Shown: positions 5,443 to 15,621 of the stretch, in pieces
Layout of the letters: the number at the start of each line of letters is the position of its first letter
Numbering within the stretch: the first letter of the stretch is position 1
Source of the DNA: Nostoc linckia FACHB-104
Lineage (GTDB): Bacteria > Cyanobacteriota > Cyanobacteriia > Cyanobacteriales > Nostocaceae
Direction: 5' to 3'
Assembly: GCF_014696615.1 (NCBI RefSeq)
Contig: NZ_JACJQJ010000013.1
Span: 95,620 to 159,619 of the forward strand
Length of the DNA: 64,000 bases
Made by a program: the position numbers and the translations under genes
Notes under the pieces: model-generated
What the model was told of the DNA's origin: nothing
What the model saw: the letters and a program-made list of their open reading frames with translations, nothing else
Database searches by the model: none

Positions 5443-5676
5443 GGCAACACCATCAACTCTTTTGAGAGACTTTGGCTGAGTCAGTTAACCCTTACATTCT
5501 TCCATTTTCTCCCAAGAAAATCAGCGTTGATTTTCAAATCGCAACTTTATATGACAAAGTCGAATTCTGTTTGCTATGTAACAGTTCTGGGAATTATGAA
5601 GATAGGAATAAAAACTGCGACTGTAGTTTATCTCCTGCAACTTTTATAGTATCAATGTACTACTGTATTAGGTTTT

Positions 5677-8600
5677 ATGGTGATGCAACCTCTTCAGCCT
5701 GTTAGCGTAGCCGATTTACAAGCATTTTTAGATACACCAGAGCAGTTATTACAGCAGTCGCCGCAATTGCAATTAGCTGTTGCTAGTTACATTGAAACGC
5801 CGCGATCGCTCTTAGAAGTTCTAGTTAATAGCCCTGATGAGCAAGTAGCTCAAGCCGCTAGCTTACACGTAAATTGGGTGGGAGAAATTACAGAAAATTG
5901 GCAGCAAGCGGTAGATACCATACTGCAACAACAGCAACTCGGACAAAATGACAGGCTAGCTGTAGAATTGCTCAAATTAGGAACTGTACCACCCTGCTTT
6001 TTCAGCGAATGGGTTCCCGCAGAACGGCTAATTCCGGCATTGCGTAATCCCTATATGCCATTAAAGTATCGTTTGCAACTGCTAGAACGTCTAGCGCAGG
6101 AACCAACTTTAGAACCACGCTTACAAGTAGCAGAATCACCAGAAACACCCTTAGCAGTATTAGAGCAGTTGGCTGGCGATTTAGAATTACCTATTAGGTT
6201 AGCGGTGAAATTTAACTCTAGTTGTCCACCATCATTAATTGAACTGGTGGAAGGACAGCATACGGTTGCATCTGATTGGAATACCGATGCAGAACAGCTA
6301 ACCATGTTAGGACAAAGCCGTTGGCCTTGGATTCGGTTGGCTGTGGCGCAAAATCCCTCAGCGACAGCAGCAACGCTGATGCAGTTGGCTGGGGATAGGG
6401 TATATAAAATTCAGTTAGCAGTGGCGAAGAATCCAGAAACACCCGCAGATGTGTTAGCTATATTAGCGCAACATCAAGATAAAACAATCCAAGCAACTGT
6501 AGCCGAACATCAAAATGCAACGGAAGAAATATTACATCAACTGTTTCCCACTCAGCAGCAACTTTTAAAAAGACGGAAAAATTTACCAGCTAGTATTTTA
6601 GAAAGATTTTTTAACGAAGCAGCGACGAATAAACCTATTTGGCAAAATAATGAACTGCGCTATTTATGTTTAGGACAACCGAATACACCAAATAGAATTT
6701 TAGCTGAGTTAGCAAATATTGATTTAGAACTATTAAGAGCAGAAAAAGCAGCAAAGTCCCAGCCGCCATCACCAGAAGTTTTTGAGCAATGGATTCAAGA
6801 TGATTTGAGATTTTTGGTTGAGGTTGCCAATCATCCGCAGGTTTCGGTAACAATTTTAGAAAGATTGATTCACTATCCTAATCCTTACATTAAGCTAGCT
6901 GTTGCCCAACATTCACAGACACCTGAAGAACTTAAACTGCGTTTATTACAGGAGTTAGGTGTTAATTCAAAAGAGGATATTAAAGTTAAAATTGCTGCAC
7001 ATCTAGATACTCCCTTACATATTTTGGAGGCGATGGGACAAAATGAGCTTTATCACACCAAGCTATTACAAGAAATTCGCCGCGTTTTAGTTTCTGAATA
7101 TGCAGTAAATGCTCACTCATTTAAGTCTCTGGCTGATAAAGTAATGTCGGATTTAAAGCACAAAGTTCTATATCCAGCAGGTATATCTGTAGATGTTGAG
7201 CAATGGATGGCAATTATTCAAAATCCTGATGTCATGGAGGTGATGGCAAGAAATTTAATGTCTGATGAAACAGACTATGAATTACATCCATTAATGATGG
7301 GATTAATGCCGCAATGGGCTGAATTACTTCCTGAACTAACACAGAAGTTAGTAGAAGAAGTAGTCATAAATATCCGGGGTATTTTGACAGTAATTAATAC
7401 TGATATCAAAATTACTGCTAGCCATCGTTCTGTGGGTGTAGCACTAGTAGGAAATCCGCATACACCGATAGGTTTGCGAGAAGAATTAAAAAACCAGCTT
7501 ATTCTTCCTCTTGATAGAAGAGGACATTACCGTGATGATTATGATGTGCGAATGTCACTAGCTTATAATCCCCAGATTCCTGAAGCCGAACGGAACACCT
7601 ATCTACAACAAGTTTTCCAAATGAAGGGGGAACAAAGAACTTTAGAAGAATTAGCTAAAAATCCTCAAACACCTACTCATCTATTAGCAGAATTGGCTAA
7701 TTCATCAGATAACATTATTCGCCATTACATTGCAAAAAATCCCTCGACTCCTGTAGAAATTCTGATTCAACTTACTGAAGATGACGATCAACAAGTGCGG
7801 GAGTGTGCTTTAAAAAATCCTCATGTGCCTATTCTCGAAGCACATCACCAAATGCAGTTAGGAGTCTATAAACTTTCATTAGCTCAAACTGAAGCAGAAG
7901 AGACTGCAAATGCTCATCAATTAATGGCGCGTCGTGCGGATAGTCCTTATGCATTGGCGCAGGTTGTAGAAAAAGGCGATCACAATTCTAAACTTACCGC
8001 CGCACGTAGCAATAAAACTCCTATCCAAGTATTACAACAACTAGCAAAAGATGCAGATGAAGCTGTGCGGCAGGCTGTCTCCCAAAATGCCAATTTACCT
8101 TTAAATAACTTACTAGAATTGGCGCGAGATCCAAGTTTGAATGTGCGCTCAAATCTTGCCTACAAACCATCTCATAGCAAAACACCAACACCTATTCAAC
8201 TATTAGAAATATTGGCACAAGATGAATCTGAGCGAATTCGCGCCAGAGTTGCAGAACATCCCGATACACCTGTGGAAATATTGGTGCGGTTAGCTAACGA
8301 TAGCAGCCGTGAAGTCAAAACCAAACTAATTGCTAACCCTAACACCCCCACAACAATTTTAAATCGCTTGGGATTAGAAGAAAATCTCGTAAATCAACGC
8401 AATCCCAATACACCAGGAATTGTCCTTGCTCAAGCAGTTAAAAGCATGAGTGGGAAAAATCTCGCTGATTTTATTAAACATCCTGTCAAAGGTTCGCAAA
8501 TGCCGGCAGAAACTTTGGCACAGTTAGCAACTCACACCGATAGTTCGGTGCGTTATCGCGTCGCGTCGCACCCTAACACCCCAGCCACAGTTTTAAGACA

Positions 8601-9732
8601 GTTAGCTAGAGATTCGTATGTCGCTACAATTCGTGCTGTCGCCAGTAATCCCAACACATCCCCGGAAACGTTAGAAGTACTCGCCAGCCATCCAGATTTC
8701 ACAACGCGTTTGGATGTAGTTCGCAATCCCAATACACCGCCTCACGCACTTTCCCAAATTGTTCAAAGTACCCAAAATTCAGGAAATACCCCAAATCAAA
8801 CCGTGGATATGCTCAAGAGTGCATTTCCTGGTAATCATAATGATGTGCTGCGTTCCATAGCTAGTAATCCGCGCACACCTATTGAAGCATTAGAAATTTT
8901 AGCCAGAAGGGAATTTGTCGGTGCAACACCCGATCCGCAAGCATTGATTCCACCTACAACCGATGATGAGATAATGCGATCGCTTGCATACAACCCCAGC
9001 TTAACACCACAACTGCTGGGCATTATCACCCAAGACCCTAGCGTAGAGGTGCGAGTTTGTTTAGTCCGTCATCCCAATTTAACAGAGGCTTTATGGTTGC
9101 GCTTGGCAGAAGATACAGCAATCTCTGTACGGGAAGCTGTTGCAGCTGCAAACAACGCACCTGTGAGTGTTTTGGAATTATTGGCGCGGGATGAACAAAG
9201 CGAGGTACGAATTAAAGTAGCAACTAACTCTAATACATTAATTCCTGTTTTAGAACTTTTAGCCAGCGACGAAAACCCCAGTGTCAGAACTGCTGCGGCT
9301 AGTAATCCTCATCTACCAGAAAGCATCCTGACACAACTAGGCAGCGATGAAAAAGTCGAAGTTCGCCGCGCAGTTGCTCAAAATCCCAACACTCCGGCTG
9401 CTATTAAACAAACGCTGCGCGATTTGCTTGTTCAACCCAACACCCAGCAAGCCACGAGTACCACCTTGCGCGGAATCAACCGCATTTACAACCCCAGCAG
9501 CGATGATATAACGAGCATACTTACAGAATATGCGACTTCCGAAAACGCCTTTGTCCGCTTAGTAACCCTACTCCACCCGCTAACTCCCCCAGAAATTTTG
9601 ACACAAGCAACGCAGTCTGCATCTTGGCTGGAACGCTATGCAGTTGCAGATAACCCCGCAACTCCAAGGGAATTACGCCAGCAGCTTACCCAAGATAGTA
9701 ATCGAGTTGTTCGTGTAGCAGCTAAAGTTTAG
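5677..9732 (+). CDS. giant leucine-rich-repeat-variant (LRV/HEAT-like) protein
   Basis: A 1351-residue protein built almost wholly from about 24-residue alpha-helical repeats of the LRV type. The pattern is NPNTP-x-x-x-L-x-x-LA-x-D-x-x-x-x-VR-x-x-VA, repeated dozens of times, for example NPNTPPHALSQIV and HPDTPVEILVRLA. LRV repeats form a right-handed superhelix and serve as protein or nucleic-acid binding surfaces. The classic LRV protein of Azotobacter has an N-terminal iron-sulfur cluster, but no matching cysteine cluster is visible here. Repeats are clearest after residue 550; residues about 330-560 are more diverged. ATG at 5677 or 5683 are both possible. The predicted nuclease gene starts 25 bp after the stop codon, with an SD in the gap, so cotranscription is likely. 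It is probably a scaffold; the binding partner is unknown. Confidence 0.88.
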   Translation: MVMQPLQPVSVADLQAFLDTPEQLLQQSPQLQLAVASYIETPRSLLEVLVNSPDEQVAQAASLHVNWVGEITENWQQAVDTILQQQQLGQNDRLAVELLKLGTVPPCFFSEWVPAERLIPALRNPYMPLKYRLQLLERLAQEPTLEPRLQVAESPETPLAVLEQLAGDLELPIRLAVKFNSSCPPSLIELVEGQHTVASDWNTDAEQLTMLGQSRWPWIRLAVAQNPSATAATLMQLAGDRVYKIQLAVAKNPETPADVLAILAQHQDKTIQATVAEHQNATEEILHQLFPTQQQLLKRRKNLPASILERFFNEAATNKPIWQNNELRYLCLGQPNTPNRILAELANIDLELLRAEKAAKSQPPSPEVFEQWIQDDLRFLVEVANHPQVSVTILERLIHYPNPYIKLAVAQHSQTPEELKLRLLQELGVNSKEDIKVKIAAHLDTPLHILEAMGQNELYHTKLLQEIRRVLVSEYAVNAHSFKSLADKVMSDLKHKVLYPAGISVDVEQWMAIIQNPDVMEVMARNLMSDETDYELHPLMMGLMPQWAELLPELTQKLVEEVVINIRGILTVINTDIKITASHRSVGVALVGNPHTPIGLREELKNQLILPLDRRGHYRDDYDVRMSLAYNPQIPEAERNTYLQQVFQMKGEQRTLEELAKNPQTPTHLLAELANSSDNIIRHYIAKNPSTPVEILIQLTEDDDQQVRECALKNPHVPILEAHHQMQLGVYKLSLAQTEAEETANAHQLMARRADSPYALAQVVEKGDHNSKLTAARSNKTPIQVLQQLAKDADEAVRQAVSQNANLPLNNLLELARDPSLNVRSNLAYKPSHSKTPTPIQLLEILAQDESERIRARVAEHPDTPVEILVRLANDSSREVKTKLIANPNTPTTILNRLGLEENLVNQRNPNTPGIVLAQAVKSMSGKNLADFIKHPVKGSQMPAETLAQLATHTDSSVRYRVASHPNTPATVLRQLARDSYVATIRAVASNPNTSPETLEVLASHPDFTTRLDVVRNPNTPPHALSQIVQSTQNSGNTPNQTVDMLKSAFPGNHNDVLRSIASNPRTPIEALEILARREFVGATPDPQALIPPTTDDEIMRSLAYNPSLTPQLLGIITQDPSVEVRVCLVRHPNLTEALWLRLAEDTAISVREAVAAANNAPVSVLELLARDEQSEVRIKVATNSNTLIPVLELLASDENPSVRTAAASNPHLPESILTQLGSDEKVEVRRAVAQNPNTPAAIKQTLRDLLVQPNTQQATSTTLRGINRIYNPSSDDITSILTEYATSENAFVRLVTLLHPLTPPEILTQATQSASWLERYAVADNPATPRELRQQLTQDSNRVVRVAAKV

Positions 9733-9757
9733 TTGTGAATAATTGAGGATGTTGCAG

Positions 9758-10378
9758 ATGGCATACAGTGATTTTACACTTGCTAAAGCTAGAGAAGCTT
9801 TTCAACTTGTAATTGATGAAAAGCGTAATTTATTCAAAGATGTGTCACCCGTTCAACCTTCCAGCACCTTAACAACTCTCTTAGAAGAATATACTCAACT
9901 AGCAACTGCAATTAACACTGAAAAAGCTCGTTCAGAATTACTAATTATGCCAATTCTCACAGAAGTTAGGCGACAGTTAAATTATCAAATTTCTCTGTTT
10001 TCTGGCACAGATTTTGATGTGGATGCGACTAAAGGATTGAATGGATTTTGTGATTTCATCCTTTCTAGTTCTGAAGAACAGTTTTACATAAAAGCGCCTG
10101 TTATGACTGTTGTTGAAGCCAAGAATGAAAATATTAAAAGTGGTTTAGGGCAATGTATAGCCACTATGGTAGCGGCCCAATTATACAATCAAGATAATCA
10201 ACAAGAAGTTAAGACAATTTATGGAGTTGTCACTAGTGGAACGAACTGGCGATTTTTAATCTTAGAAGGACTAACAGCATACATTGATGCAGTTGAATAC
10301 TACATTAATGATGTGAATAAAATTTTGGGAATTTTATTACAACCCTTTCAACCTGCTTTACTTACACCATCTTCCTAA
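9758..10378 (+). CDS. small PD-(D/E)XK-like predicted nuclease
   Basis: The 206-residue start at 9758 (MAYSDFTLAK) is chosen because GAGGA lies 8 bases before it; a TTG at 9743 and ATG at 9749 extend the frame but are less well placed. The core reads as a restriction-endonuclease-like fold: a helix with RSELLIMPILTEVRRQL, then GFCDFIL (Asp), a spacer, VVEAKNE (E-x-K), and GLGQCIATMVAA with the downstream Gln common in this superfamily. The order D - ExK - Q matches the large cyanobacterial family of about 200-residue type-I-R-like nuclease proteins. The pseudogene at 18240-18854 appears to be a relative. It lies directly behind the LRV gene and ahead of two nuclease-inhibitor-like genes. Nuclease activity is inferred from motifs only. 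Confidence 0.65.
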   Translation: MAYSDFTLAKAREAFQLVIDEKRNLFKDVSPVQPSSTLTTLLEEYTQLATAINTEKARSELLIMPILTEVRRQLNYQISLFSGTDFDVDATKGLNGFCDFILSSSEEQFYIKAPVMTVVEAKNENIKSGLGQCIATMVAAQLYNQDNQQEVKTIYGVVTSGTNWRFLILEGLTAYIDAVEYYINDVNKILGILLQPFQPALLTPSS

Positions 10379-10390
10379 ATCAGCAATTTT

Positions 10391-10418
10391 AGGTGTGTTT
10401 CACTTTGCTAACACACCT
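10391..10418 (+). other. hairpin between nuclease-like and NuiA-like genes
   Basis: A perfect 9-bp stem, AGGTGTGTT (10391-10399) with AACACACCT (10410-10418), around a 10-base loop. It lies 12 bp after the nuclease-like stop codon. On the + strand it is followed by an A-tract rather than a U-tract, so it is not a textbook terminator. It may act as an attenuator or mRNA-end protector between the genes. Confidence 0.5.
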
Positions 10419-10451
10419 GCAAAAAAAACTTAACATTCAATCTCTTAAATT

Positions 10452-11390
10452 ATGCAACCAAAAACAGAACAACTTCTTGCAACAATTCAAGTAATTCTTG
10501 ACCCTAAATCTGGCTTTCATTTACCCGGACATGAAGATGGCGGATATATTTACCCATTTGTTTGGGATGCAACCGAAAAAGGTGAATTTAATATTCTCAA
10601 TCTCAGCCTTTCTCAAAATTGGTTAAAACTTACAGATATTGAGAATACAATCAAGAGTTGGCGGACAATGGATTATGCTAGTAATTTTAATAGCTTTGAC
10701 TTAAATGAAAATGATAAAAATACTTGGGCTAATAAAATAGAAAGCTTATATCAACTCATAAGGGATAATTTACAATATTTAGAATCTTTTTATGTCAAAA
10801 CTTCCTCTTACTTTCCCTCAGACGATCTAGTTGGTTTGATTATTGGTAAAACAGCAGATGGAGATTGGGTTGCTGTTTTCCAGACTCTTTATAAAGAAAC
10901 TAATATTCCCCAAGGACTAATTTCTCGCGATCCTGTGAATTACTCTATCCCTAATCAAGTATTAGGAGAAAATACGCTAAATTTAATCTCGCAACTGCAA
11001 GCAATTACTTCCGAACTGGGAGCAATTAATTTAAACGGAGATTTTGGTGGTGGTTATTACTATAATTACGATTGTCAAATTGTCTATAGCGCTGCTGAAA
11101 CGAAAGAAGCCGCAATTATACAATCTCTGCAAGCCTCAGGAATGTTAGAAATTAGTCAATTTAACAATTTCTATTCTGAGCAAGAATATTTATATGATTG
11201 GTATAGCGATTCTGAAGCTGAATATGCAAAACACAATAAATTAAATCAATTTCTCAAATCTAATTTTGCAAAAGTAATGATGTACAGATTTAGCTTTTGG
11301 ACTCAGGAGAATATCTACATTATTGGTGAAACTACTAGTGGCGATTGGACAGGTATATATATCAAGAGTGAATTTGTATATAACCCATAA
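10452..11390 (+). CDS. NuiA-like (nuclease A inhibitor-like) tandem-domain protein
   Basis: A 312-residue soluble acidic protein. Its C-terminus (IYIIGETTSGDWTGIYIKS) closely resembles the end of Anabaena NuiA, the inhibitor of the sugar-nonspecific nuclease NucA, whose tail has the pattern YVIGETPAGN-x-AGISTK. A second such signature, GLIIGKTADGDWVAVFQ, sits mid-protein after a helix like the NuiA one (LYQLIRDNLQYLESF), so the protein looks like two NuiA-like domains in tandem. The single-domain NuiA is about 135 residues. The downstream gene is a paralogue. NuiA homology is inferred by eye from short motifs; binding to the adjacent nuclease-like protein is only a hypothesis. Confidence 0.6.
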   Translation: MQPKTEQLLATIQVILDPKSGFHLPGHEDGGYIYPFVWDATEKGEFNILNLSLSQNWLKLTDIENTIKSWRTMDYASNFNSFDLNENDKNTWANKIESLYQLIRDNLQYLESFYVKTSSYFPSDDLVGLIIGKTADGDWVAVFQTLYKETNIPQGLISRDPVNYSIPNQVLGENTLNLISQLQAITSELGAINLNGDFGGGYYYNYDCQIVYSAAETKEAAIIQSLQASGMLEISQFNNFYSEQEYLYDWYSDSEAEYAKHNKLNQFLKSNFAKVMMYRFSFWTQENIYIIGETTSGDWTGIYIKSEFVYNP

Positions 11391-11536
11391 TTTTAAATTT
11401 AACATATAAAGCATTCCTGAATAAAGAGATAAAACTGAAAAATTTGATTCCTCAAACTCTTCCTCTCTGCGCCTCTGCGCCTCTGCGTGAAAAAAATTAC
11501 CCTAATAAACAACACCAAATTAAATTAAAATAAACT
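11391..11536. repeat. short intergenic CTCTGCGC repeat
   Basis: Between the two NuiA-like paralogues there is a short direct repeat, three copies of CTCTGCGCC/CTCTGCGTG around 11465-11490. No ORF and no clear promoter. Confidence 0.45.
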
Positions 11537-12454
11537 ATGCAAGCTGAAACAGAAAAATTGCTTGGTACATTAGAAATCCTCTGTTCTAATGCTTTGATTT
11601 GGGAAACTATCTACCAAGGAGAATTTAACCTGTGGAATTTGATAATTTCTCAAAGATTGGTCAACCTAACCGACATAGAACTAGCTTTTGAACATTGGCA
11701 AAATATTGAGGAATGGGGAACGCCTACAAATCAAAAAGAATATGGTGAGTATGCTCCAACTCGTTCCGAACACAAAAACAATAACTGGAATCAAACTATT
11801 GCTGCTGAACGCCAAGAATATTATCAAAAAATTCAGCATATCCTGACTAAGAATTGTCAAAATTTGCAAGCTTATAGTTTATCTATACCCAAATCAAACC
11901 ATCAAAATTTTGAATGGGGACACCCTGATTTTTCTGTATCAATATTAGTAGCTGAAACTAAAAATAATAACTGGTTATGTCTCGCGCCTACTGTTCCCGA
12001 TCAAGTCAGCTATAATCGCCGTAAAACAAACCCAGCCACAACAAAAATTGTCCGTGAAAAATCAGCAACTTTAGCCGATGAAAGTTTAATATCACAATTA
12101 CAATCCTGTCTCGATAATCTCACGCCAATTATAATTTACGGCTACTATCACGGCGGATATAACTATACTTATGAACATCATCTCGTAGGTGCATACGCCA
12201 AAACTAAAATATCTGCTATTGAACTAGCACTACAAGCCGCAGCAATGGTGATGATAGAAAAGCCAACTGTTGAGTATGCTAGCGATGCCTACAATAGCCG
12301 CAAACTCAGCCAATTTATGAATAAGTGTTTAAGCGATCGCACTCTCTACACTATCAGCTTTTGGGATATTGGTTACACTTACGAAGTCGGACAAACCCCA
12401 GCAGGTGATTGGATTGGTGTACGTTCAACAAGCGAATTTGAATATAATCCTTAG
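11537..12454 (+). CDS. NuiA-like protein, paralogue of the preceding gene
   Basis: A 305-residue protein aligned in layout with the upstream gene: both begin MQ-x-x-TE-x-LL-x-T and end with SFW, then a VGQTPAGDWIGVRS motif, then SEFEYNP. The C-terminal signature matches the NuiA family tail even more closely (G-x-TPAG-x-x-x-G). The mid-protein counterpart (VAETKNNNWLCLAP) is degenerate, so only the C-terminal domain keeps the family signature. A shared YGYYHGGYNY / GGGYYYNY segment precedes the C-terminal domain in both. No signal peptide is seen, whereas classical NucA is secreted. It is likely the product of a tandem duplication. Confidence 0.58.
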   Translation: MQAETEKLLGTLEILCSNALIWETIYQGEFNLWNLIISQRLVNLTDIELAFEHWQNIEEWGTPTNQKEYGEYAPTRSEHKNNNWNQTIAAERQEYYQKIQHILTKNCQNLQAYSLSIPKSNHQNFEWGHPDFSVSILVAETKNNNWLCLAPTVPDQVSYNRRKTNPATTKIVREKSATLADESLISQLQSCLDNLTPIIIYGYYHGGYNYTYEHHLVGAYAKTKISAIELALQAAAMVMIEKPTVEYASDAYNSRKLSQFMNKCLSDRTLYTISFWDIGYTYEVGQTPAGDWIGVRSTSEFEYNP

Positions 12455-12478
12455 TTTTGTCGAACAAACACCAAATAC

Positions 12479-13329: not shown

Positions 13330-13402
13330 ATTGATAATTTTGGCATTTGGTAATTGGGAATGGGTAATTGGTAATCGGTAATTGGTAATGGGAGTAATTA
13401 GT
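13330..13402. repeat. GGTAATT-type heptamer-like repeat in divergent promoter region
   Basis: Repeated TTGGTAATTGG / TTGGTAATGG blocks occupy most of the divergent spacer between the photolyase-like gene and the lipoxygenase gene. They belong to the short tandemly repeated repetitive (STRR) class common in heterocystous cyanobacteria. Confidence 0.65.
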
Positions 13403-13463
13403 AATGAGAATTTTTCCCTGATTCTCCAACCTCCCATTCCACTGTTGCAAATAGGAGCTAATA

Positions 13464-15371
13464 ATGCAACGCCAAGCACTTTCTACAAAACAACAAGGTC
13501 AATATCGCTATAATCCCGCTACTCTTGATGATAAGGGGCCTGCACGGATTTTTCCCTATGGGGGAGAAGATGGGGTATTGCGCTATATATTGATGAAACT
13601 GCGGCAAAATCAGCTAAATCAAGGACAAGTATCGCAACCTTTGAGTTTGCTAGTAGCAGAGTTAGAAAAGCTAATTCATGATTTTGAGGGAAACTTCGAT
13701 AATTTATCGACTTTGCTGGCAGATTTTGAGATTTTTCAATCGGGATGGTTTAATTTTTATTTGCCACCTAATGAACAGTTTAATGCCAGCTATGTTCGCC
13801 AACGCAAGCAAATGTTACAGCGACTTTTGAAAGCAACGGACGCAGCAAAAAAGGCAGATTCTCATGAGCAACAGCGATCGCACTTTTACCAATCCCTAGA
13901 ACAAAGCGGAAAATGTCAGCCTCACTCACCCCAACGCCCCAGAGTTAGCTTAATTCATCAGCGAGATGGCGGGTTAAGCGATCGCGAGTTTGGGCGGCAA
14001 CGGTTAGCGGGGCAAAACCCAATGGTATTACGGCGTTTGCAGTCTGAGGAAACAGGTAGATTGCAAGCTTGGATCAATCAGCCTTATAAATTGGCTGATG
14101 ATAGCGTGATAGACTTAGTAGCATCCGCAGGGGCTAGCCGTTTGTTTATTGCTGACTATCCCCTGTTGCAAGATTTAAAAGCCACAGATTTGCATTATGG
14201 TCGCTATGTAGGGAGTCCTACGGCGCTATTTTATCGCTCTGATGATGGACTTGAACCATTACTGATTGAGGTAGAAAAAGGCAGAGTCGTCACGAATACA
14301 GATAATGCCGACGATTGGACAAGGGCAAAACTCTCTGTACAAACTGCCGATGTCACCGACCATGAGTTGATTACCCATCTAGCCTATACTCATTTGGCAA
14401 TGGAGACATTTGCGATCGCCACTGCTCGACAGTTACCAGAAAATCACCCCCTGTCTCGGCTATTGCGTCCCCATTTTCAGTTTCTTTTGGCAATTAACAC
14501 TAGAGGGAATAGCTTATTGCTCGGTGAAGGTTCTGCCATTGATAAGTTAATGGCGACTACCAGAGAAACTTCTTTAGGGTTAATTAATCGCGCTTATAGA
14601 AAACGTGCTTTTAGCGAATATTCTTTACTCAATGACATCACCACTCGGGGAATAGAAGCAAAATTCATCTCAGAGTTTCCTTACCGTGATGATGCCTTAT
14701 TGCTGTGGGAAGCGATCGCTAATTATACTACTCGTTATTTACAACGCTACTATGGCGATGACCGAGCAGTCCAACAAGACTTATATCTGCAAGCTTGGAC
14801 AGCAGAACTAGGCGCACCCTTAGACTCCCGTCCGCTATCGGAGTTTGCTCAAGCACCAAGTTGGGTACCTAACGAATGGGCGATCGCCACCGGGTTAGAG
14901 ATTGAAGAATTACCTAGCTATCCCCGTGTACCAGGGTTTCCAGAAATCACCAGCTTGCAACAACTCATAGATATTGCCACTGTAATTATTTTTACCTCTG
15001 GCCCGCAACACGCTGCGGTCAACTTTAGCCAGTTTGATTATGTCGGCTATGTTCCCAACGCACCTTTAGCACTTTACAGCCAACCAGATGTTCCCAGTAC
15101 TTTAAAACAATTACTACCCCCACCAGTACAAGACTTGGAACAGATGCAGTTATCATTTTCCCTGAGTGGGATTAATTGGGGTAAACTCGGCAGTTCTGAT
15201 TTAATCAATTTTACCGAACAAGGCGATCGCCAAATCCTCACCCAGTTCCAAAATGAACTCAAAGATATTGAAAGAACAATTAAAAACCGCAATCAACAGC
15301 GTGTAGCCGATAGCGGTGTTGAGTATCCTTACCTTTTACCATCTCGCATTCCTAACAGCATCAATATTTAA
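13464..15371 (+). CDS. lipoxygenase (cyanobacterial mini-LOX)
   Basis: A 635-residue non-heme-iron fatty-acid dioxygenase. Iron ligands are visible in the expected order: HLAYTH (His305 and His310), GPQHAAVNF (His516 and Asn520) and the invariant C-terminal isoleucine (PNSINI, Ile635). The helix motif LSRLLRPHFQFLLAINT and the DWTRAKLSVQTAD segment are also typical. Lipoxygenases insert O2 into polyunsaturated fatty acids such as linoleate or linolenate to give hydroperoxides that feed oxylipin formation. There is no N-terminal PLAT domain and no signal peptide; the length matches the short cyanobacterial type. ATG at 13464 has AGGAG six bases upstream. It is divergent from the photolyase-like gene, with no obvious hydroperoxide lyase nearby. 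Regiospecificity cannot be read. Confidence 0.92.
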   Translation: MQRQALSTKQQGQYRYNPATLDDKGPARIFPYGGEDGVLRYILMKLRQNQLNQGQVSQPLSLLVAELEKLIHDFEGNFDNLSTLLADFEIFQSGWFNFYLPPNEQFNASYVRQRKQMLQRLLKATDAAKKADSHEQQRSHFYQSLEQSGKCQPHSPQRPRVSLIHQRDGGLSDREFGRQRLAGQNPMVLRRLQSEETGRLQAWINQPYKLADDSVIDLVASAGASRLFIADYPLLQDLKATDLHYGRYVGSPTALFYRSDDGLEPLLIEVEKGRVVTNTDNADDWTRAKLSVQTADVTDHELITHLAYTHLAMETFAIATARQLPENHPLSRLLRPHFQFLLAINTRGNSLLLGEGSAIDKLMATTRETSLGLINRAYRKRAFSEYSLLNDITTRGIEAKFISEFPYRDDALLLWEAIANYTTRYLQRYYGDDRAVQQDLYLQAWTAELGAPLDSRPLSEFAQAPSWVPNEWAIATGLEIEELPSYPRVPGFPEITSLQQLIDIATVIIFTSGPQHAAVNFSQFDYVGYVPNAPLALYSQPDVPSTLKQLLPPPVQDLEQMQLSFSLSGINWGKLGSSDLINFTEQGDRQILTQFQNELKDIERTIKNRNQQRVADSGVEYPYLLPSRIPNSINI

Positions 15372-15422
15372 ATGATTTGTAAGCTAATACGCGTCTAAAT
15401 TGCATAACTACTAATTAAGGGC

Positions 15423-15499
15423 TGTTAACTGTTGACTGTTAACTGTTAACTGTTGACTGTTGACTGTTGACTGTTGACTGTTAACTGTCAACGGTCAAC
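15423..15499. repeat. heptamer tandem array TGTTGAC/TGTTAAC
   Basis: Eleven contiguous 7-bp units of TGTTGAC, TGTTAAC and close variants (last TGTCAAC, GGTCAAC) between the lipoxygenase and kinase genes. Typical STRR array; no ORF. Confidence 0.9.
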
Positions 15500-15621
15500 A
15501 CCCCACACAATAGCTTATTCCCCTTTTCCTCTTAACCGACAAGATTGCGATCGCTAAAACTCTTTACAGGAAAATCAAGGTGATAAAGGTAAACTAGCAG
15601 ATAAAACTGTTACCTGCTGGC

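Follow-up and report, generated by a model that had tools for sequence, protein, structure and literature searches.

In type I restriction systems, the specificity subunits (HsdS) have two modules that can be exchanged independently and are flanked by conserved segments. A further system of relevance is the nuclease and inhibitor pair NucA/NuiA, in which the C-terminus of the canonical inhibitor is said to reach into a pocket of its partner, its C-terminal residue reportedly taking part in a metal bridge. NuiA acts as a competitive inhibitor of NucA, its known partner, which is a His-Me finger nuclease, according to PMC5758888.

The window analysed in the present work is a 64,000-nt stretch of the genome of Nostoc linckia FACHB-104 (G000). 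It contains a presence/absence block (5596..12472, without strand), in which four genes are encoded on the plus strand. A giant LRV/HEAT-type solenoid protein of 1351 aa (5677..9732; PF01816, 4.8e-64, PF25591 and PF02985) shows LRV repeats at 208.9 bits, compared to the Pfam profile cut-off of 21.6. It is followed by a PD-(D/E)XK protein of 206 aa (9758..10378), which is an optional member from a dispersed multicopy family, and by two double-domain NuiA-like proteins of 312 aa (10452..11390) and 305 aa (11537..12454), with the codons of their conserved Y-N-P C-termini at 11379..11387 and 12443..12451, respectively. Between the nuclease-like gene and the first NuiA-like gene lies a plus-strand hairpin with a 10-bp stem (10390..10419; -12.7 kcal/mol, z -3.14), with no U-run 3' of it. 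The block of an LRV gene, a nuclease gene and two NuiA-like genes described by the first-pass annotation was confirmed, and both folds predicted there are supported: the 206-aa protein exhibits the PD-(D/E)XK fold with its E-D-ExK-Q residues and motif intact, and the double-domain proteins belong to the NuiA fold, with PF07924 matches of 49.3 and 23.3 bits against a cut-off of 22.1. In a search with PADLOC 2.0.0, the optional nuclease was the sole cassette protein matched (PD_DExK), and the LRV and NuiA-like proteins (three of the four) had no match even at E values as high as 1.

The block is absent at the same site in two sister species (G229 and G273), and has been gained or lost as a clean unit. 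In both, the genes flanking the site are 94-96% identical to those of the window and stand, by protein matches, 347 bp (G229) and 543 bp (G273) apart, with about 103 bases of no clear resemblance to the block taking the place of window bases 5596-12472; G198 and G281 are uninformative on this point, since their flanks are on different contigs. A lipoxygenase gene (PF00305, 6.1e-56; window 13464-15371) adjoins the block and is also missing in G229, where the locus jumps from window base 13349 to 15514. Short tandem repeats, recognised as repeating ORFs and multiple overlapping blastn matches, are present at about 653-870 and at 15424-15500 of the window, and the second of these is found at the empty site too, where it lies between the flanks.

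Every listed place with an LRV match was fetched, and the loci were thus not chosen for the presence of NuiA. The LRV ORFs that reach 800 aa number 18, from 14 genomes, and in all 18 the next gene downstream on the same strand is a double NuiA gene. The spacing between the two genes ranges from -115 to +149 bp in 16 of these loci, the negative values being a product of longest-ORF starts, and reaches about 720 bp in the remaining two (the window and L014, which shares its contig and its single count with L105), where the nuclease-like gene sits between them. The gene order seen in the window is thus conserved for the LRV and NuiA-like genes, yet not for the nuclease. The locus tags of named strains are consistent with the LRV-NuiA order, namely those of Aphanothece hegewaldii (C7H19_06495/06500), Tolypothrix PCC 7910 (HCG51_19155/19145) and Anabaena cylindrica FACHB-243 (H6G54_26345/26335). 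The units may also be repeated, with two in tandem in G248 and four in G224. Three loci carry no NuiA-like gene (G174, G278:C41 and G139); their LRV frames are all broken, and with LRV ORFs below 800 aa they stand outside the 18. The fragmentary LRV loci L085, L088 and L089 do carry one. The presence of LRV relatives (E 1e-50) is patchy: they occur in 11 of the 145 genomes from the family and in 7 of the 148 from the order, both sets being samples of larger groups in which the window's own genome is counted, and since at most four candidates were scored per genome, more distant LRV paralogues may be missed. Genes of the Mrp-type antiporter adjoin LRV-NuiA units or their remnants in L079, L088 and L090, as found by PF00420, PF00361 and PF13244 in L079 and judged by similar ORF sizes in the other two.

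Alignment of the LRV windows reveals conserved ends and two variable regions. In the window's protein, the conserved N-terminal segment (aa 1-220; 6336 being the last base of 5677..6336) and C-terminal segment (aa 1200-1351; 9274..9729) enclose two exchangeable modules, V1 (aa 226-745; 6352..7911), marked by a drop of DNA identity against G262, and V2 (aa 951-1150; 8527..9126), marked by a similar drop against copy B of G248, all on the plus strand. The DNA identity between G000 and G262 is 50% over aa 226-650, 77% over aa 651-745 and 96-98% over aa 751-1351, with dS values of 2.18, 0.78 and 0.05-0.12, respectively; the N-terminal segment is not wholly constant, exhibiting a dS of 0.37 over aa 1-220 compared to 0.05-0.12 in the C half. 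Between G262 and copy A of G248, the dS is 0.17 over aa 1-220, 0.03 over aa 226-650 (where the DNA is 99% identical), 0.00 over aa 651-745 and 0.33-0.40 over aa 751-1351. G262 thus combines a V1 module nearly identical to the one found in another species with a C half close to that of G000, which argues for exchange in blocks. Against copy B of G248, the window's gene shows 86% DNA identity over aa 1-220 (dS 0.59), 43% within V2 (dS 2.88 over aa 951-1150) and 74% over aa 1151-1351 (dS 0.77). The LRV modules recombine between species.

The same pattern is reflected in a survey of 100 full-length sequences (the window's own being P0076) with 4243 scorable pairs, for which 120 homologues were listed and 20 outside 1100-1450 aa were excluded. 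Among the 142 pairs with at least 85% identity in the N-terminal segment, identity falls below 60% in V1 in 80, in V2 in 53, in the spacer (aa 751-900) in 26 and in the C-terminal segment in none; such pairs are not independent, those with low V1 coming from 38 proteins. The corresponding figures for the 100 pairs with at least 85% identity in the C-terminal segment are 51 (V1), 23 (V2), 14 (spacer) and 0 (N-terminal segment). V1 is below 60% in 83 of the 129 pairs alike in V2 (at least 85%), and the reverse case of high V1 and low V2 is also found (P0082/P0100 and P0146/P0158). Module exchange diversifies the protein, and does not in itself reveal a target of recognition. The earlier suggestion that the LRV protein recruits a target is possible and is strengthened by the exchangeable modules.

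The NuiA-like proteins are distinguished by their C-terminus. Among 75 homologues, five of which lack the C-terminus, 69 of the 70 with an intact end terminate in YNP and the other in YNT, whereas all six canonical NuiA sequences read end in VVET (three further loci yielded none with the filter used); the LRV-linked proteins lack this mark of NuiA proper. The tails of 33 LRV-linked proteins comprise 31 of the Y/F-N-P type, one IWT (L076:9909) and one YRG (L093:8512). Among 18 NuiA-like proteins without an adjacent LRV gene, two orphans end in YNP, and a terminal Thr is found in 11 of the other 16. A quick tree was built without the last five residues, from 31 of the 33 LRV-linked rows (the L014 pair, being near-copies, was left out) and 17 of the 18 without LRV (L153 was left out). 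In this tree, 30 of the LRV-linked rows fall with the two orphans on a single branch (SH-aLRT 100), and 31 of its 32 rows end in N-P, versus none of the 16 other rows. The tree, its root being unplaced, requires at least three changes of the LRV label and at least five of the tail label (three tail states); on the simplest reading, the link to LRV and the new tail would have arisen together once. Nuclease inhibition may have gone with the loss of VVET. Sequence identity in the first NuiA protein tracks that of the LRV ends (Spearman 0.53-0.54) and that of V1 (0.47; 15 loci) to a similar degree, and no docking site is thereby indicated.

The genomic context differs as well. The window's own genome codes for two canonical NuiA genes, each beside a PF01223 gene. 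In 19 genomes (15 with the cassette and 4 without; coordinates compared by hand), a PF01223 nuclease lies within 1 kb of 14 of the 17 canonical NuiA genes that matched strongly (E below 1e-38), in one case at about 0.9 kb, the exceptions being in G168, G121 and G135. In the same 19 genomes, none of the LRV-linked NuiA-like genes has such a neighbour within 1 kb, which again sets them apart from NuiA proper. The cassette genome G056, with an LRV gene and two NuiA-like genes, gave no PF01223 match, and at least one was found in each of the other 14 of the 15; a resident NucA is thus apparently not required. PF01223 domains are also present inside ORFs of 10,368-11,600 aa (G272:C2, G224:C2, G248:C2 and G255:C4), and no PF07924 match was found on these contigs. 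NuiA domains fused to pentapeptide repeats occur in five proteins of two genomes, G224 and G144 (L097, L151, two in L152, and L153), four of which end in Thr. In G261, a double NuiA-like gene (L100:2-6486) overlaps the end of an alpha-2-macroglobulin gene (PF17973, PF07703, PF00207) by 4 bp, a pairing of a protease trap with a NuiA-type protein; relatives of 299 aa are found in G195, G228 and G247.

The reading preferred here, to which a probability of roughly 0.4 is assigned, is that of a two-part cassette, in which an LRV recognition subunit would guide a nuclease-binding inhibitor, likely onto the nucleases of phages or other invaders. That the inner modules are swapped while the ends are conserved would fit a recognition protein facing changing targets, and the NuiA fold of its partner would point to a nuclease. 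The absence of a constant nuclease gene from the cassette would make a foreign target more plausible than a resident one under guard, and the pentapeptide-repeat fusions lend support to the notion of a repeat scaffold that aims NuiA domains. In such a mechanism, the two exchangeable modules would bind variable foreign proteins, and the conserved LRV ends would dock the NuiA-like proteins. By analogy with the canonical pair of NuiA and NucA, the NuiA domains would engage a nuclease in the same way, and the Y-N-P tail would enter the partner's pocket in the manner of the canonical C-terminus. A more specific proposal, tentative and perhaps doubtful, is that of a hitherto undescribed type of cyanobacterial immune cassette, whose solenoid with two swappable modules would aim duplicated NuiA domains, with Y-N-P as a plug, at fast-changing phage or plasmid nucleases, thus disarming the nuclease of the invader instead of cutting DNA.

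Several other explanations have been considered. The first-pass annotation had proposed that the adjacent nuclease is kept in check by the NuiA-like proteins, such that the PD-(D/E)XK protein would serve as a toxin or in defence, with the NuiA-like proteins conferring immunity to it. The two are indeed adjacent in the window and in L014, the nuclease fold and motif are intact, and traces of the gene occur elsewhere, as similarity to its first 26 codons between LRV copy B and NuiA in G248 and as a truncated copy upstream of the LRV fragments at the degraded G278 locus (L085). Yet in 16 of the 18 intact loci the gene does not lie between LRV and NuiA, and a nuclease is thus not constantly found beside its supposed inhibitor. 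The family is dispersed over 16 of the 21 genomes searched, with 2-21 matches in each, and no relative (E 1e-15) was found in the other five, all of which have LRV matches; moreover, the PD-(D/E)XK fold is unlike the His-Me finger of NucA. The proposed restraint is therefore unsupported and this explanation very improbable. The association of the nuclease with LRV recurs but is not constant, and the protein is taken to be an optional component, either a passenger or an accessory, rather than the target. A guard model is somewhat unlikely. Here the double NuiA would hold a resident nuclease inactive, until the LRV protein, by way of its variable modules, senses a protein of an invader and pulls the inhibitor off, leading to DNA degradation and cell death. 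The competitive inhibition of NucA (PMC5758888), the PF01223 matches (at least one in 14 of 15 cassette genomes) and the sensor-like exchange of modules would all accord with it, but the cassette contains no constant nuclease gene, G056 contains the cassette genes without a PF01223 match, 14 of 17 canonical NuiA genes already stand beside NucA-type genes and, as a weaker argument, the block is cleanly gained or lost.

The same components may alternatively serve as a housekeeping or developmental scaffold, in which the NuiA-like parts would be plain binding domains and the LRV modules would change by drift or by conversion between paralogues, with no selective pressure for recognition. This is unlikely, in that the ends stay alike while the modules swap (in none of the 142 pairs does the C-terminal segment drop under 60%), V1 has been transferred nearly unchanged between species, and the block is patchy with an empty site, although the LRV gene is rich in repeats and the two tandem paralogues of G248 could act as donors. 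It is less likely still that the NuiA-like proteins neutralise NucA-type toxins of competing cells, with LRV as a specificity scaffold: the canonical VVET has been lost and PF07924 is missing from the contigs of the giant ORFs, even if the presence of PF01223 within these ORFs and the fact that canonical NuiA answers a PF01223 enzyme would suit such a role.

The guided-inhibitor cassette preferred above can be compared with known systems. No description of the LRV-NuiA pair, nor of an LRV protein with recombining modules and a NuiA neighbour, was found in the literature searched, which comprised mainly titles and abstract openings and also portions of PMC5374557 and PMC5758888. The domains themselves are known; the partnership and its evolutionary behaviour are new, and the function is predicted from sequence. 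Compared to NucA/NuiA of Anabaena (PDB 2o3b, 1j57), the cassette has two tandem NuiA domains, proteins ending in Y-N-P instead of VVET, and an LRV rather than a NucA neighbour; a family known from one studied inhibitor is here duplicated, ends in a conserved C-terminus that is new, and is coupled to a polymorphic repeat protein. The LRV (PF01816) solenoid proteins share their common repeat family with the cassette protein, which differs by its two recombining inner modules between conserved ends and by its constant NuiA-like neighbour. The pentapeptide-repeat/NuiA fusions, for which the parts of the literature searched returned only natural-product reviews, likewise join a repeat scaffold to NuiA domains, yet do so in a single chain, with another type of repeat and without the Y-N-P tail. 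The natural LRV alleles of G000, G262, G150 and G248 are directly testable. The likeness to HsdS is one of layout only, not implying DNA binding: none of the four cassette genes is an HsdM or HsdR by Pfam, and the LRV protein is an acidic alpha-solenoid (pI 5.5), yet in both, conserved segments enclose two modules that can be exchanged. Should the modules determine the target, the LRV protein would thus represent a protein-recognition counterpart of the exchangeable specificity subunits.
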